Shown piece by piece: positions 19,843 to 32,932 of a stretch of DNA of 32,932 bases. Positions within the stretch are counted from its first letter, which is position 1. Each line of letters starts with the position of its first letter. The notes beneath the pieces are model-generated. The model had not been told where the DNA came from and did not search any database. It was given only the letters and a program-made list of their open reading frames with translations. The stretch is taken from the NCBI GenBank assembly GCA_037479115.1, contig JBBFLK010000028.1, positions 1 to 32,932 on the forward strand. The letters are read 5' to 3'. The DNA comes from Anaerohalosphaeraceae bacterium (GTDB lineage: Bacteria; Planctomycetota; Phycisphaerae; Sedimentisphaerales; Anaerohalosphaeraceae). Made by a program: the position numbers and the translations under genes.

Positions 19843-21684
19843 GTGAGTCGTTTGAAAACGCAGCCGACAACCAAACCGATTCGCTGGAAACGAAGGGGGA
19901 TGTTCGGCGTGCTGATTCTGGGGCTGCTGGCGGCATCCTGCCGACCCAAAGATTCGTCTTCTCATTCTGAGATTCTTTTCCAGCAGCGTTCCCGAGCCAA
20001 GATTCAGACCCTCGACCCGGCCCAAATCGGCGATGTGCCCACCGATGAAGTTTCACGCGAATTCTTTGAAACGCTGTATTATTATCATTATCTCAAGCGT
20101 CCGTACGAACTGGTGCCGCAGCTGGCTGCTCAGATGCCGGAGATTTCCGAAGACGGCTGCACCTATACCATCCGGATTCGTCCGGATGTTTATTTCCACG
20201 ATGCGCCCTGCTTTCCGGGCGGCAAAGGACGGAATGTGACGGCGGAGGATTTCATCTATGCCTGGAAGCGGATTGCGGATGTCAAGACCGCCAGCAAGAA
20301 CTGGTGGATTTTCGACGATCGGATTGTAGGCCTCAATGAATTTCGCGAGTATTCCAAAACCTGTGAAAAAGGGCGGGTGGATTACTCCCGACCGGTGGAG
20401 GGGCTGGAGGCGGTTGAGCCGCATCTGCTGCGAATCCGACTGATTCGTCCGTGGCCGCAGCTGATTTTCTGGCTGGCCCACGTGCCGACAGCACCGATGG
20501 CCCGCGAGGCGGTCGAGTACTACGGGGATGAGATTCGCAACCACGCCGTCGGCACCGGACCGTTTGTTCTGAAAAAATGGGTGAAGGGCAGTTATATTGA
20601 GGCCGTCCGAAATCCCTCCTACCGCCCCGATTTTTATCCGACCGAGGGAATGCCGGAGGACGTCGAACAGGGGCTTCTGGCGGATGCAGGTCTGCGCGTG
20701 CCCTTTCTTGACCGGATTATCTGGCGCATCATCGAGGAAGACCAGCCCCGCTGGCTGATGTTTATGCGGGGGCGGATTGACATCAATTCCATCCCGAAGG
20801 ACAATTTCGGACAGGCTGTTGCTTTCGGTAAGACCCTTACGGAGGATATGAAGCGCAAGGGGATTCGGCTGCAGACGTTTATTGAGCCGAATGTGTTTTA
20901 TGTGTCTTTTAATATGAGCGACCCGATTCTGGGCAAGAATAAGCCGCTTCGGCTGGCGATTAATTATGCGATAGACCGGGAAAAATTCATTGAGCTGCTG
21001 ATGAACGGCCGGGGGATTGTCGCCCATGGGTTTATTTCGCCGGCGATGGAGGATTATGACCCCAACATCGTGCAGGTTTCCCGCTCTGTTTTTGACCTGG
21101 AGAAGGCCCGCACCTGGCTGCGTGAAGCCGAACGGATTCACGGCGGCCCGATACCGCGGCTTCGGCTGGCGGTCGGCGGCACGGATACGACCTATCGCCA
21201 AATCGCCCAGTATTTTCAGCGAAATATTCAGGAAATCGGTCTTCAGGTCCAGATTGAGGCGTTCGACTGGCCGACATTTCTGGAAAAGATGCGAACCAAT
21301 CAGCTTCAGCTGATTGGCGGGACCGGCTGGATGGCCGATTATCCCGATACGGAAAGTTTTCTGCAGGTTTTTTACGGTCCGAATGCCCCCTGGCCCAACA
21401 GCAGCAATTATTCCAGCCCCGAATTTGACCGGCTGTATGAGCAGATTCGCGTTCTGCCGCCTTCGCCGGAGCGGACCCGTTTGTATCGGCAGGCCGAGCG
21501 GCTGGTTATTGAAGATATGCCTGTCGCCTTTGTGTATCACCGCATCGGCTATATTCTCTATCACGACTGGGTCGGAAATTTCAAGCCGAACGCCTATAAA
21601 GCCGAATGTATGGGGGGAGGATTCGCCAAGTATTATCGAATCGATGCGGACAAGCGCCGCGCCTATTGGAAGCAGTACGAATGA
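19843..21684 (+). CDS. Oligopeptide-type ABC importer, substrate-binding lipoprotein 1 (SBP_bac_5)
   Basis: This 613-residue periplasmic binding lipoprotein captures the substrate for the downstream permease. The lipobox is LLAASC with lipidated Cys33, after a basic N-region. The SBP family 5 fold spans roughly 70-530, with YTIRIRPDVYFHD and VGTGPFVLKKW as recognisable segments. It starts with GTG at 19843, supported by AAAGGA eight bases upstream. The coding region ends with an ATGA overlap into a second, related binding protein. Compared with typical DppA/OppA (about 530 residues) it carries an insertion around the IVGLNEFREY segment, shared with its neighbour. Peptides are the family's usual cargo, but oligosaccharides are transported by some members. 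Confidence 0.9.
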   Translation: MSRLKTQPTTKPIRWKRRGMFGVLILGLLAASCRPKDSSSHSEILFQQRSRAKIQTLDPAQIGDVPTDEVSREFFETLYYYHYLKRPYELVPQLAAQMPEISEDGCTYTIRIRPDVYFHDAPCFPGGKGRNVTAEDFIYAWKRIADVKTASKNWWIFDDRIVGLNEFREYSKTCEKGRVDYSRPVEGLEAVEPHLLRIRLIRPWPQLIFWLAHVPTAPMAREAVEYYGDEIRNHAVGTGPFVLKKWVKGSYIEAVRNPSYRPDFYPTEGMPEDVEQGLLADAGLRVPFLDRIIWRIIEEDQPRWLMFMRGRIDINSIPKDNFGQAVAFGKTLTEDMKRKGIRLQTFIEPNVFYVSFNMSDPILGKNKPLRLAINYAIDREKFIELLMNGRGIVAHGFISPAMEDYDPNIVQVSRSVFDLEKARTWLREAERIHGGPIPRLRLAVGGTDTTYRQIAQYFQRNIQEIGLQVQIEAFDWPTFLEKMRTNQLQLIGGTGWMADYPDTESFLQVFYGPNAPWPNSSNYSSPEFDRLYEQIRVLPPSPERTRLYRQAERLVIEDMPVAFVYHRIGYILYHDWVGNFKPNAYKAECMGGGFAKYYRIDADKRRAYWKQYE

Positions 21685-23516
21685 AAAAAAGAACCGTTCA
21701 AATTCGACCGGCCGCCATGGTTTTGCTGGTCCTGGCCGTCTGTTTGCCGGCCGGATGCCGCAGGAGACCGGATTCCTCCGCTTCGGAACGGATGGTCATC
21801 CGGGTGCCGATGTTTTCCAAGATTCAGACGCTCGACTGCGGCAACCTGACCGATGTCTATTCCATTGGGGTGGCCTCGCAGATTTACGAATCCCTGTATG
21901 AGTACCATTATCTGAAGCGTCCGGTCGAGCTGGTGCCCCTCCTGGCCGAGGATATGCCGGACATCAGTGAGGACCATCTGACCTATACCATCCGCATCCG
22001 AAAAGGCATTTTCTATCACGACGACCCCTGTTTCCCCGACGGCAAAGGGAGGGAGGTCAAGGCGGCGGATTTTGTCTTTGCTCTCAAGCGCATTGCCAAC
22101 GTCAAATATATGAGTCAGCGGTGGACCGACTGGAACGGACGCATCGTCGGACTGGATGAGTTTCGAGAGTACACCAAGGGGTTTCGGCGGGAGTCGGATG
22201 TCGATTACAGCGTGGAGGTGGAGGGGCTGCGGGCCCTCGATGATTATACGCTCCAGCTGAAGCTGACCAAACCCTGGCCCCAGCTGATTTGGTATCTGGC
22301 CTCCGCCGTCACGGCTCCGGTCCCGCGTGAAGCCGTCGATTATTACGGCAAAGACATTATGTATCATCCCGTCGGCACCGGTCCGTTTCGGCTGAAGGTC
22401 TGGGAGCGGGGGTTTTATATCGAACTGGTTCGCAATGAAAAATGGCACGGCGGAACTTATCCGACGGAAGGCGAGCCGTCTGATTGGGAGAACGGCTATC
22501 TGGAGGACGCCGGCAAGCCGCTTCCGTTTGCGGATGCGATTGTGTATCGCGTCATTGAGGAGTTTCAGCCCGCCTGGCTGATGTTTCTGCGCGGCGATTT
22601 GGACATTATGCAGATTTTCAAGGACAACTTCGCCCAGGCCGTCAATCCGGATACCTTGACGGCTACGCCTGCGATGGCCGAACGCGATATTCGGCTGCTC
22701 GTTTTTGACGACCCGTCGGTTTTCTGGATCGGCTTTCATATGCAGGACCCTGTTCTGGGCCGGAACAAACCGCTCCGGAAGGCGATTAGCCGGGCAATCG
22801 ACCGCCAGGCCGCCATTCGCCTGTTCTTTAACGGGGTGCACAAAGTGGCCTATGGCTATCTGCCGCCGGGACTGGAGGAATATGACCCCAATATTGTCCA
22901 TACCGATTATGCCAAATATGACCCGGCGGAAGCCCGTGCGCTGCTTCAGGAAGCGCAGCAGATTCACGGCGGGCCCATTCCGCCCCTGACTATCGCCATT
23001 CCGGGCACATCCAATCTGGACCGTCAGATCGGGCAGTTTCTGCAGAAATATCTGGCGGATGTCGGTCTGCAGCTCCGCGTGGATTATATGGACTGGCCGA
23101 CCTATCTGGACGGGCTGAACAAGGGCAAGCTTCAGATTTTCTTCAGCGGGGCCAGCCCGAGCATCCCGGACTCTCTCGATATGCTGATGGCCTTTTGTTC
23201 GTGGAACTGGGGGTACGGCGGCAACCATTTCCATTATTCCAATCCGGAATTTGACGCCCTGTACCGGCAGGCCGAGCCGATGTTTCCCGGTCCGGAACGA
23301 ACCCGCCTGTGCCGTCAAATGGAGCGAATTATGCTGGAGGACTGTCCGGCTGTCTTTCTGAATCACCGTGTCGCGATTGCGATTATCCACGGCTGGTACA
23401 AAAACGCCAAACCCCATGAGTTTTCCTACAATACCGCCAAATACAGAAGGATTGACCTGGAGAAGCGAAACCGCTATAAAGAACTCCTGAAAGAACTCAA
23501 AAAGAAACCAAAATGA
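21681..23516 (+). CDS. Oligopeptide-type ABC importer, substrate-binding lipoprotein 2 (SBP_bac_5)
   Basis: This 611-residue binding lipoprotein has the lipobox LPAGC (Cys26). It is a close paralogue of the preceding protein: both share YHYLKRP, ELVP, ISED, LTYTIRIR or equivalent, GRIVGLxEFREY, KPWPQLI/RPWPQLI and YHPVGTGPFRLK. This points to tandem duplication followed by divergence, perhaps to widen substrate range. The ATG overlaps the previous stop codon (ATGA, 21681-21684). The open frame extends upstream to 21606 but that part lies in the first gene. Its 3' end overlaps the permease start in the same way. Confidence 0.9.
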   Translation: MKKRTVQIRPAAMVLLVLAVCLPAGCRRRPDSSASERMVIRVPMFSKIQTLDCGNLTDVYSIGVASQIYESLYEYHYLKRPVELVPLLAEDMPDISEDHLTYTIRIRKGIFYHDDPCFPDGKGREVKAADFVFALKRIANVKYMSQRWTDWNGRIVGLDEFREYTKGFRRESDVDYSVEVEGLRALDDYTLQLKLTKPWPQLIWYLASAVTAPVPREAVDYYGKDIMYHPVGTGPFRLKVWERGFYIELVRNEKWHGGTYPTEGEPSDWENGYLEDAGKPLPFADAIVYRVIEEFQPAWLMFLRGDLDIMQIFKDNFAQAVNPDTLTATPAMAERDIRLLVFDDPSVFWIGFHMQDPVLGRNKPLRKAISRAIDRQAAIRLFFNGVHKVAYGYLPPGLEEYDPNIVHTDYAKYDPAEARALLQEAQQIHGGPIPPLTIAIPGTSNLDRQIGQFLQKYLADVGLQLRVDYMDWPTYLDGLNKGKLQIFFSGASPSIPDSLDMLMAFCSWNWGYGGNHFHYSNPEFDALYRQAEPMFPGPERTRLCRQMERIMLEDCPAVFLNHRVAIAIIHGWYKNAKPHEFSYNTAKYRRIDLEKRNRYKELLKELKKKPK

Positions 23517-30728: not shown

Positions 30729-32621
30729 ATGATTTGTTCGGCCGCGATTCAGAGGGAAACCCCCAGCCGCACAAACCGGACAGATATATGTGGACAGGCA
30801 CGGTCTTGTATATGTCTGTGTTTGCTTTTTTGGGGGTTTCAGTCGGCATCGAACGCGGCGGCATCCTCTTCCGGGCCTTCTTCTGAGCTGATTTGGAAGT
30901 CTTTTCAAACTCGTCCAGTACCGCAGTGGCTACCGGAGGCGAAGTTCGGCATTCTTATCTGCTGGGGGCCGTACAGCGTACCCGCCTATGATAACGAATG
31001 GTACTTTCGAAATATGTATCTTGAAGACCATCCGGTTTATCGGCATCATCGGGAAAAATACGGAGACCCATCCGGATTCGGCTATAAGGATTTTTTCCCG
31101 CTCTTTAGGGCGGAACGTTTTAATCCTGAAGAATGGGCGGCCCTGATGGCAGAAGCGGGGGCACGCTTCGGCGGTCTGGCGGCCGAACATGCCGACGGGT
31201 TTTCGATGTGGGCCAGCCGAATCAACCGCTGGAATGCAATGGATATGGGGCCTCGACGAAACATTGCCGCCGAGCTGGCAAGTGCGTTGGAAAAACGCGG
31301 GCTGAAGGTGGTGCTGAGCTTTCATCATTCGTCCAATCTCCTCCCGAACACGTTTCCCGCCAAAGCAGGTTGGGATACGGCAGACCCTCAATATGCCGAC
31401 CTGTATGGAAAGTTTCTCGACCCCGTTGTGGGGTTTGAACGCTGGCTGGTCAAAATCCAGGAGGCCGTTGAGGCTTGCAGCCCCGATATGGTCCTTTTTG
31501 AGTCAGGCCTTGAGGGGATTCCGGATTCTTACAAAAGTCGGTTGGCCGCCTTCTTTTCCGGACAGCAGGAGCCATTTGTTTTAGCCGGGCTGCCGCAGGA
31601 TTTTTCCGCAGGCGCAGGAATTCCGATTCTGGAACCGGCACGCATTCAGACAATCCAGCCCTCTCTCTGGCTGGCTGTTGATTCCATCGGCACAGACAGC
31701 CGGTGTTTTACTGAGTCGCTGCATTTGAAATCGCCCCGGGAGCTGATTTATCAAATGATTGATGTTGTCAGCAAAAAGGGAGTTTGGCTTTTGACCATCA
31801 GTCCTCGTGCCGACGGAACAATCCCTTCGGATCAGCAGCAGATTCTCTCCGAGATTGGGCGGTGGCTTCGGGTCAATGGAGCGGCGGTTTATTCGACCCG
31901 CCCCTGGGACTTTTACGGAGAAGGTGGTGTTTCCCCTGGTTTGGATGAAACAGCATCCGTGCTTCGGTTTACTGCTGATGATAGGGCGCTTTATATCATC
32001 ATATTCGGCTGGCCGCAAAGTCCTTTGCGGCCCAGGTCCCTGCAGGTGCGTGCCTCCGATTCCCGGTCCCAAGTCACCCTTTTGGGCTTGTCTGATTCCT
32101 TGACGTTCCGCGTTGACCGCAATCGCCGATTGGAAATCGATGTGCCCGACCTTCCCCCCTCGCAGCGTCCCTGCCAATATGCGTATGTCTTCAAATTGGA
32201 AGGGTTTGATATCCAGGCCGACCCCTTTTACGGGCCTGATGCACTGGTGCTCGAAGCCGCTGCCGCACTCCTCGAAGGAGAACGTCTTCACCGCCGGGAA
32301 CAAAGCGGTTTGCCCCGGATTATCTGGGAGGACCCGCAGGAGAAAATCCATTGGCTTGTTTCTGTTCGAAAGGCCGGACGCTATGCGGTTCGTCTGGAGG
32401 GTTCTGCGGCGATTGGACCGGTTTCGCTGATGCTTTCCTGGAGTTCGGAAAGACTCCAGTTTGTGTTTCCTCGAACAGAGGGCTGGGAAACGCTCCGGTT
32501 TGCGGAGGCGGGGACCATCCGCTTTCCGCGGGCGGGAGTCTATCACCTGACGCTTCAGGCAGGGGATTTGAAAAACTGGCGTCCGGTTAATCTGGGCCGG
32601 ATTCGTTTGGCACCTCAATAG
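30729..32621 (+). CDS. GH29 (alpha-L-fucosidase)-like secreted protein with altered active site
   Basis: This 630-residue protein carries the GH29 framework: AKFGILICWGPYSVPAY (71-87), NEWY, the region equivalent to KHHDGF (EHADGF, 153-158), GPRRNI, and SPRADGTIPS before a C-terminal beta-rich region. However three hallmark positions differ from family consensus: His in FGxFIHWG is Cys78, the second His of KHHDGF is Ala155, and the WFDG nucleophile Asp is Glu258 (LFESG). The enzyme may be inactive, or have a new specificity or mechanism. The N-terminus (about 26 polar residues, then CICLCLLFWGF, SNA) looks like a long signal peptide. ATG at 30729 has GGGAG seven bases upstream. A Tat-exported aldo/keto reductase follows nine bases downstream. 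Confidence 0.75.
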   Translation: MICSAAIQRETPSRTNRTDICGQARSCICLCLLFWGFQSASNAAASSSGPSSELIWKSFQTRPVPQWLPEAKFGILICWGPYSVPAYDNEWYFRNMYLEDHPVYRHHREKYGDPSGFGYKDFFPLFRAERFNPEEWAALMAEAGARFGGLAAEHADGFSMWASRINRWNAMDMGPRRNIAAELASALEKRGLKVVLSFHHSSNLLPNTFPAKAGWDTADPQYADLYGKFLDPVVGFERWLVKIQEAVEACSPDMVLFESGLEGIPDSYKSRLAAFFSGQQEPFVLAGLPQDFSAGAGIPILEPARIQTIQPSLWLAVDSIGTDSRCFTESLHLKSPRELIYQMIDVVSKKGVWLLTISPRADGTIPSDQQQILSEIGRWLRVNGAAVYSTRPWDFYGEGGVSPGLDETASVLRFTADDRALYIIIFGWPQSPLRPRSLQVRASDSRSQVTLLGLSDSLTFRVDRNRRLEIDVPDLPPSQRPCQYAYVFKLEGFDIQADPFYGPDALVLEAAAALLEGERLHRREQSGLPRIIWEDPQEKIHWLVSVRKAGRYAVRLEGSAAIGPVSLMLSWSSERLQFVFPRTEGWETLRFAEAGTIRFPRAGVYHLTLQAGDLKNWRPVNLGRIRLAPQ

Positions 32622-32630
32622 GAGCTGTGT

Positions 32631-32932
32631 ATGAAAATCGCAAGACGTACATTTCTCAAGCAGACTTTGTGGGGATTAGGCGGCATTCTGCTCGGCTGCC
32701 GGAGAACGGAGAAAGAATCCGGACCGGCTTTTTGGAATCCGTATGAGAAGGTACCGCTGGGCCGCACGCCCATCCGGCTGTCCCGGGTCGGGTTGGGAAC
32801 GGGAATGCGGGCTTCGGGCCGGATGTCCAATCAGACCCGCCTCGGACAGGAAAAATTCACCGAGCTGGTCCGCACCTGTCTGGACCGGGGGATTTCGTGG
32901 TTTGATGCGGCGGACCTGTACGGCAGCCATTC
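32631..32932 (+). CDS. Tat-exported aldo/keto reductase lipoprotein, 5' part
   Basis: The first 100 codons of a gene cut by the window edge. The N-terminus combines a twin-arginine motif (ARRTFLKQT) with a lipobox ending in Cys23 (ILLGC), so the product should be exported folded and lipid-anchored. The mature part begins VPLGRTPIRLSRVGLGTG, typical of aldo/keto reductases. FDAADLYG carries the catalytic Asp92 and Tyr97 with the expected spacing. AGGAG overlapping the stop codon of the GH29-like gene is the ribosome-binding site, so the two are co-translated. Exported aldo/keto reductases of this kind are frequent in planctomycetes; the substrate is unknown. Confidence 0.85.
   Translation, partial: MKIARRTFLKQTLWGLGGILLGCRRTEKESGPAFWNPYEKVPLGRTPIRLSRVGLGTGMRASGRMSNQTRLGQEKFTELVRTCLDRGISWFDAADLYGSH

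Follow-up and report, generated by a model that had tools for sequence, protein, structure and literature searches.

The gene at positions 30729-32621 (+) of the window, as we call the whole 32,932-nucleotide stretch of contig JBBFLK010000028.1 analysed here, encodes a GH29-like protein that we are somewhat inclined to regard as a pseudo-glycosidase, probably glycan-binding, related to BpGH29-like enzymes and with its active site dismantled. The name "alpha-L-fucosidase" comes from profile searching, and a working fucosidase is very probably not what the protein is; judged from its sequence, it is quite likely not a working GH29 glycosidase. Under the pseudo-glycosidase reading, alpha-L-fucosides would no longer be hydrolysed at a useful rate, glycan would be bound through a CBM6-like C-terminal sandwich and possibly also through the altered barrel pocket, and the protein would act outside the cytoplasm, alongside an exported-looking aldo/keto reductase encoded next door.

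The open reading frame runs for 630 amino acids without an internal stop, has GGAG upstream of its start, and is followed by a gene that begins 9 bases past its stop, in agreement with the earlier note's description of a full-length gene with a good ribosome-binding site and a coupled downstream partner. The N-terminal region, residues 1-50 (30729..30878, +), contains a hydrophobic stretch that looks by eye like a signal peptide, and is the fastest-changing part of the protein. It is followed by a GH29-type TIM barrel, residues 51-400 (30879..31928, +; Pfam PF01120 at 51-384 and VIA-align to human FucA1), a Fucosidase_C domain, residues 407-491 (31947..32201, +; PF16757), and a C-terminal beta-sandwich, residues 493-630 (32205..32618, +). 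The Alpha_L_fucos profile matches at 249.6 bits (7.7e-74, against a cut-off of 25.2) and Fucosidase_C at 43.9 bits (3.7e-11). An AlphaFold model built from nine sequences, with mean pLDDT 77.5, has eight barrel strands and aligns to solved GH29 chains with Z of 28.1-37.2 across 370-458 residues in the first 37 matches listed. Both the profile match and the barrel fold, the latter as predicted, place the protein in GH29. In the orthologue from genome G003 the start region differs, with an in-frame Met followed by a stretch that again resembles a signal peptide by eye; in the proteins of the window and of G004 this Met is absent and the N-terminus has to extend further. We also weighed, by eye, a different N-terminus that a frameshift in the T/G run near 30826 would give, and set it aside, as the start at 30729 has the GGAG and is matched in G004.

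Relatives were collected from 59 related genomes (47 with a match) and 161 genomes of the order (61 at E 1e-60), from 397 genomes sampled from the class (11 at E 1e-110), the window's own being counted each time, and from GTDB contigs (9 loci). Of the genome searches, the best matches were carried forward as loci; 63 homologous frames in all were reduced to 59 by removal of duplicates. Setting aside four distant rows, three fragments, the protein of G005 (L006), and the three proteins with Cys78, Ala155 and Glu258 (shorthand C/A/E; the window genome G000, G003 and G004) leaves a canonical set of 48.

In the window protein the motifs read CWG from residue 78, HADGF from 154, and LFES from 256. 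Cys78 (30960..30962, +) replaces the His of the HWG motif, present in 48 of 48 canonical rows; Ala155 (31191..31193, +) replaces the second His of HHDGF, present in 47 of 48, with the first His, residue 154, kept; and Glu258 (31500..31502, +) replaces the Asp nucleophile, again present in all 48. Both lost His residues we take to have a role in GH29 enzymes. Over all 59 rows, column 258 holds Asp in 55 and Glu only in the window protein and its two close orthologues, one row being uncovered. In HMMER alignments to BpGH29 the His of IHWG pairs with Cys78, the second His of EHHDGF with Ala155, and the Asp of WFDW with Glu258; that Asp is Asn in 7lnp, described as the D264N mutant. Both HWG and HHDGF align without local gaps to BpGH29 and to human FucA1, as does Glu258 to the BpGH29 nucleophile, the FucA1 alignment stopping short of 258. 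Motif positions and alignments thus confirm the three substitutions that the earlier note had read from the sequence. The sole canonical exception at 155 is a separate GH29 protein, L015 of genome G011, which has Ala in HADGF and keeps both HWG and the Asp nucleophile; its branching suggests that this His was lost independently a second time.

According to excerpts from PMC10154630, the nucleophile of GH29 sits where beta-4 ends and the acid/base near the end of beta-6, and in the portion of PMC9548408 available to us the Asp nucleophile is said to be conserved across all GH29s. Cys78 is the last residue of strand 1 (73-78) of the AlphaFold model, and Glu258 lies on strand 4 (254-259). Where the enzyme family has an Asp at the end of beta-4 and two motif His, the window protein has Glu258, Cys78 and Ala155. 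An Asp nucleophile sited elsewhere, which the earlier note had said would refute its case, appeared neither in the alignments nor at the model's strand positions. Glu302 (31632..31634, +), the candidate acid/base, is kept; it lies just after strand 6 (298-300), and the column is Glu in all 58 rows that cover it.

The loss extends well beyond these three positions, an extent that the earlier note had understated. We screened 62 columns that are at least 90% conserved in the 48 canonical rows. One or more C/A/E proteins depart from the conserved residue in 20 of them, and all three do so in ten (78, 155, 178, 250, 258, 278, 288, 300, 304 and 325), column 278 being altered in the canonical protein of G002 as well. 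By the same measure L006 differs in 11 columns and the most deviant canonical rows in six. Among the replacements in the C/A/E proteins are Trp/Tyr256 to Leu, Leu and Val, Lys288 to Leu, Met and Leu, Asp300 to Ile, and Thr316 to Ala, together with Arg325 (31701..31703, +) in place of a Trp found in 48 of 48 canonical rows. Trp91, His154, Asp156 and Glu302 are retained in the C/A/E proteins, and loss of Trp91 is confined to L006. At seven of the ten changed columns the three C/A/E proteins agree with one another, about the barrel average (247 of 347 columns). According to the available text of PMC9548408, the FucA1 Trp two residues before the nucleophile belongs to a hydrophobic pocket, which suggests a role for position 256. 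The pocket was assessed from the alignment and predicted secondary structure: residues 256, 288, 300 and 325 fall near barrel strand ends, and 288, 300 and 325 would line the pocket, whose local geometry is unsure because model pLDDT falls under 50 for residues 155-157. We also asked whether Cys78 and Cys250 might form a disulfide, and discarded the idea by eye, since the model's secondary structure places them towards opposite ends of the strands of the barrel.

The closest proteins to that of the window, in G004 (L033; 80% identity) and G003 (L034; 78%), carry the same Cys, Ala and Glu. L006, at 51% identity, has Thr78, Leu155 and Asp258 and is intermediate, while the G002 protein (L007/L035), at 48%, is canonical at all three positions (His, His, Asp). 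Another genome of this genus, G001, gave a distant match only, and the window genome itself encodes a second GH29 protein, on another contig, with canonical His, His and Asp. In a tree of 56 rows, in which the three C/A/E rows are flagged for unusual amino-acid make-up, the C/A/E proteins form a clade with support of 100/100, L006 is their sister (99/95), and G002 falls outside (100/98). The four distant rows split off in this tree, whose rows are the proteins collected from genomes, with neither BpGH29, the best solved match, nor FucA1 among them. The C/A/E form was seen in three genomes, representing three species of one genus, and of the 11 matches at E 1e-110 among the 397 class genomes, where scoring took in the top three candidates of each genome, none beyond these three was a further member. 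This genus holds canonical (G002), intermediate (G005) and fully altered (G000, G003, G004) forms. Because the replacements in L006 and in the C/A/E proteins differ at 78 and 155, these residues may have been lost once, in a shared ancestor, or in parallel; stepwise loss is the simplest history, one of several possible.

The change is concentrated where a catalytic site would be. We defined an active-site face on the predicted model as the last three residues of each strand, the next six, and two loops, giving 77 positions to compare with the remaining 256. In 11 chosen canonical pairs the face diverged 0.16-0.65 times as much as the rest, whereas between G002 and either L006 or the C/A/E proteins, and between G058 and L006, the ratio was 1.15-1.34. 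A branch analysis of eight proteins on a fixed topology gave 0.320 for the face against 0.082 for the rest on the branch above L006 and the C/A/E proteins, and 0.557 against 0.449 on the C/A/E stem. The face/rest ratio was 0.17-0.49 on four canonical tips and 0.82 and 1.30 on two canonical inner branches; within the clade it was 1.34 on the window's tip (0.148 against 0.110) and about 0.5 on the other two. Differences fixed between the C/A/E proteins and four unanimous canonical relatives occupy 19 of 43 face positions and 17 of 103 elsewhere (Fisher p = 0.0007). As a point against a dismantled enzyme, parts of the barrel are well kept in the clade; in 147-170, 23 of 24 residues are identical.

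The C-terminal domain is the most conserved part of the protein within the clade, with 111 of 138 columns identical as compared to 247 of 347 in the barrel and 9 of 49 in the N-terminal region, and with 84-90% identity between C/A/E proteins. A separate model of residues 480-630 (pLDDT 86.2) shows residues 493-630 as a beta-sandwich. The first six Foldseek matches are to agarase CBM6 structures with neoagarohexaose (2cdo and 2cdp; best E 1.5e-7, TMq 0.66-0.70, 16-17% identity), and later ones to other CBMs, Cry toxin domains and glucanotransferase modules, with identities of 10-22% over the first 50. The predicted fold is thus of the CBM6/CBM35 beta-sandwich type, a fold that other relatives match as well. 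The only profile match in the domain, to DUF5077, is below cut-off (E 0.17 for the window protein and 0.0046 for that of G004).

We compared the two domains in all 190 pairs of 20 proteins having both. In each of the three C/A/E pairs, which are related and not independent, the C-terminal part is better conserved than the barrel; this holds for none of the 43 other pairs whose barrel identity exceeds 50%. Of the 136 pairs that lack a C/A/E member, 102 show greater conservation of the barrel, made up of those 43 and 59 of the 93 with barrel identity up to 50%; in the remaining 34 of the 93 the C-terminal part is at least as conserved. In the eight-protein branch analysis, the C-terminal/barrel ratio on the tips was 0.98 (window), 0.34 and 0.24 for the C/A/E proteins, 1.18 for L006, and 2.48-3.72 for the four canonical proteins. 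Other branches ranged from 0.87, on one canonical inner branch, to 4.67, with 1.40 on the inner C/A/E branch and 1.69 on the C/A/E stem, where the C-terminal domain outpaced the barrel (0.796 against 0.471). On the window's own tip the domain is not slower (0.116 against 0.118 for the barrel), and this weaker signal of constraint slightly lowers our confidence in binding. The binding role draws on domain constraint together with the predicted C-terminal fold, and that binding is the function under selection seems to us a little better supported than its contrary. The course of active-site dismantling, and a possible shift of constraint from the barrel to the putative binding module, are testable with existing proteins.

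The genomic neighbourhood is shared by the window, G004 and G003, with genes in the order ABC transporter, PQQ-repeat protein, FAA hydrolase (opposite strand), GH29-like protein and aldo/keto reductase. The reductase gene (32631..32932, +) is cut by the contig end at 32932; what remains is 91% identical to the full-length L061 protein, which matches Pfam Aldo_ket_red. At its N-terminus, which is twin-arginine and lipobox-like, it carries RR..FLK and a Leu-Gly-Cys resembling a lipobox. The motif-position residues Asp, Tyr, Lys and His, which we take to be the AKR tetrad, are kept in the four full-length copies, and the reductase also follows the GH29 gene in G002 and G005. Upstream in the window, two tandem genes for family-5 solute-binding proteins (19843-21684 and 21606-23516) precede one oligopeptide-type ABC transporter, the binding protein being duplicated.

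A gene of about 241 residues (L064 9296-10021, -; L063 473-1201, +), with weak, sub-threshold Pfam matches, closely precedes the GH29 gene in G002 and G005. Relatives of it occur in 38 of 59 genomes and in none of G000, G001, G003 and G004 of the same genus. As a candidate partner it was rejected, because nine of the genomes with relatives gave no match to the GH29-like protein in the search of the 59 (G036, G041, G045, G049, G050, G052, G053, G054 and G056). Beyond the aldo/keto reductase, L062 3441-9257 encodes a sigma-70-type factor, a FecR-like protein and LamG/Ig-domain proteins, and similar genes lie at L063 4334-8708. Five canonical neighbourhoods were fetched, and a Pfam scan covered L070 and L073. 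The cluster around the canonical relative in L070 (3060-10177) comprises a second GH29 protein, an aldo/keto reductase distinct from the one above, an MFS permease and a zinc alcohol dehydrogenase, and a sugar-type regulator adjoins it; L073 has an aldo/keto reductase. The gene content of both fits sugar catabolism.

Could the gene simply be eroding, its function lost and its frame open by chance? We consider slow decay improbable. The mature-protein dN/dS is 0.185 (CI 0.143-0.236) for window against G004, 0.155 (0.117-0.195) for window against G003, and 0.249 (0.190-0.327) for G004 against G003, while the canonical GH29 paralogue gives 0.097, 0.144 and 0.125 for the same genome pairs and three neighbouring genes give 0.085-0.181. 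The gene is thus clearly constrained, with point estimates somewhat above those of the paralogue, although the intervals of the two overlap for window against G003. This difference, a protein identity of 77-80% where the paralogue has 92-94% and the neighbours 89-95%, and the poorly conserved N-terminus are what decay would predict. Against it, the upper bounds of dN/dS, 0.20-0.33, are far from 1, the frame is open in 3 of 3 genomes at dS of about 0.4-0.7, the C-terminal domain remains highly similar and gene order is kept. The gene shows neither a broken frame nor a dN/dS near 1, the marks of a pseudogene, and on sequence comparison it is under purifying selection in three species; the earlier note's view of a sub-family rather than a decaying pseudogene holds, with three genomes sharing the changes, frames intact, and dN/dS of 0.16-0.25. 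An ordinary fucosidase whose substitutions reflect misalignment or sequencing error is a far more improbable explanation. Acid/base positions in GH29-A do align poorly by sequence, as the accessible parts of PMC10154630 and PMC9548408 indicate, but the local motif alignments are free of gaps, the strand positions fit, and three genomes agree. We rejected both kinds of error on these grounds; with the G003 and G004 orthologues carrying the same three changes, chance or an assembly error is very unlikely.

The earlier note had offered three possibilities: another sugar, another mechanism, or a lectin-like role. Of these the lectin-like role fits best, given the extensive site loss and the conservation of the C-terminal domain, and an active enzyme with a changed site, using Glu258 as nucleophile or base, Glu302 as acid/base, and a sugar other than L-fucose or L-galactose, is unlikely. 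Glu302 and a carboxylate at 258, the latter in 3 of 3 proteins, are both kept, which counts against a pseudo-glycosidase; Trp91, His154 and Asp156 are retained too, concentration of change on the face fits a substrate switch, and GH29 already holds galactosidases and glucosidases, as stated in excerpts from PMC10154630. However, the protein has lost both motif His as well as Lys288, Asp300 and Trp325, and the changed conserved columns are no better kept among the C/A/E proteins than the barrel average. L006, moreover, has Asp258 yet is without the conserved residue at 78, 155, 288, 300 and 325, which suggests that loss of the site came before the Asp-to-Glu step. The specific proposal of a GH29-derived enzyme with a glutamate nucleophile, a remodelled pocket, a different sugar, and a living intermediate relative in the Thr78/Leu155/Asp258 protein we likewise regard as distinctly unlikely; if true, such an enzyme would depart from the statement of a universal Asp nucleophile in the portion of PMC9548408 available to us.

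Turning to systems already described, the best sequence match (E about 1e-77, residues 60-492) is BpGH29, the exo-alpha-L-galactosidase of Bacteroides plebeius (7ljj, 7lk7, 7lnp; also 7snk, Bacple_01702), of which 7lk7 is the complex with L-galactose. The window protein shares with it the barrel, the Fucosidase_C region and a Glu aligned with Glu302; unlike BpGH29, with its His, His and Asp264, it has Cys78, Ala155, Glu258 and the further losses. Foldseek superposition of the whole chain on BpGH29 gave TMq 0.60-0.61 with an rmsd of 9.6-10.0 A, a value that means domain placement in the model either differs or is unsure. The next solved relatives by sequence are human FucA1 and a Fusarium enzyme. 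FucA1 (7pls; Z 37.2 to 7pls_A by VIA-align, 406 residues aligned, 2.9 A) and the Thermotoga maritima fucosidase (1hl8, 1odu; Z 34.9-35.0) have the same barrel and adjoining C-terminal beta domain, and differ from the window protein in having an Asp nucleophile, D225 and D224 respectively, according to the part of PMC9548408 that also provides FucA1 kinetics and puts the FucA1 counterparts of Glu258 and Glu302 at 5.8 A from each other. The Cecembia lonarensis glucosidases ClAgl29A/B (7xsf, 7xsg, 7xsh), with Z of about 28 to the window model, are active GH29 members that act on another sugar, as described in excerpts from PMC10154630. The available sections of PMC11189522 contain no counterpart of the window protein, and literature searches limited to open-licence PMC papers found no GH29 pseudoenzyme counterpart. 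For the C-terminal 138 residues, the likeness is one of fold, to the agarase CBM6 modules (TMq 0.65-0.70).

Pseudo-glycosidases are a known kind of protein, derived from other glycosidase families. In GH18 chitolectins and alpha-lactalbumin, which belong to families other than GH29, the hydrolase fold is kept, catalytic residues are lost, and a binding or regulatory role has taken the place of catalysis. If it is glycan-binding, the window protein would represent a GH29-derived case of this same pattern.
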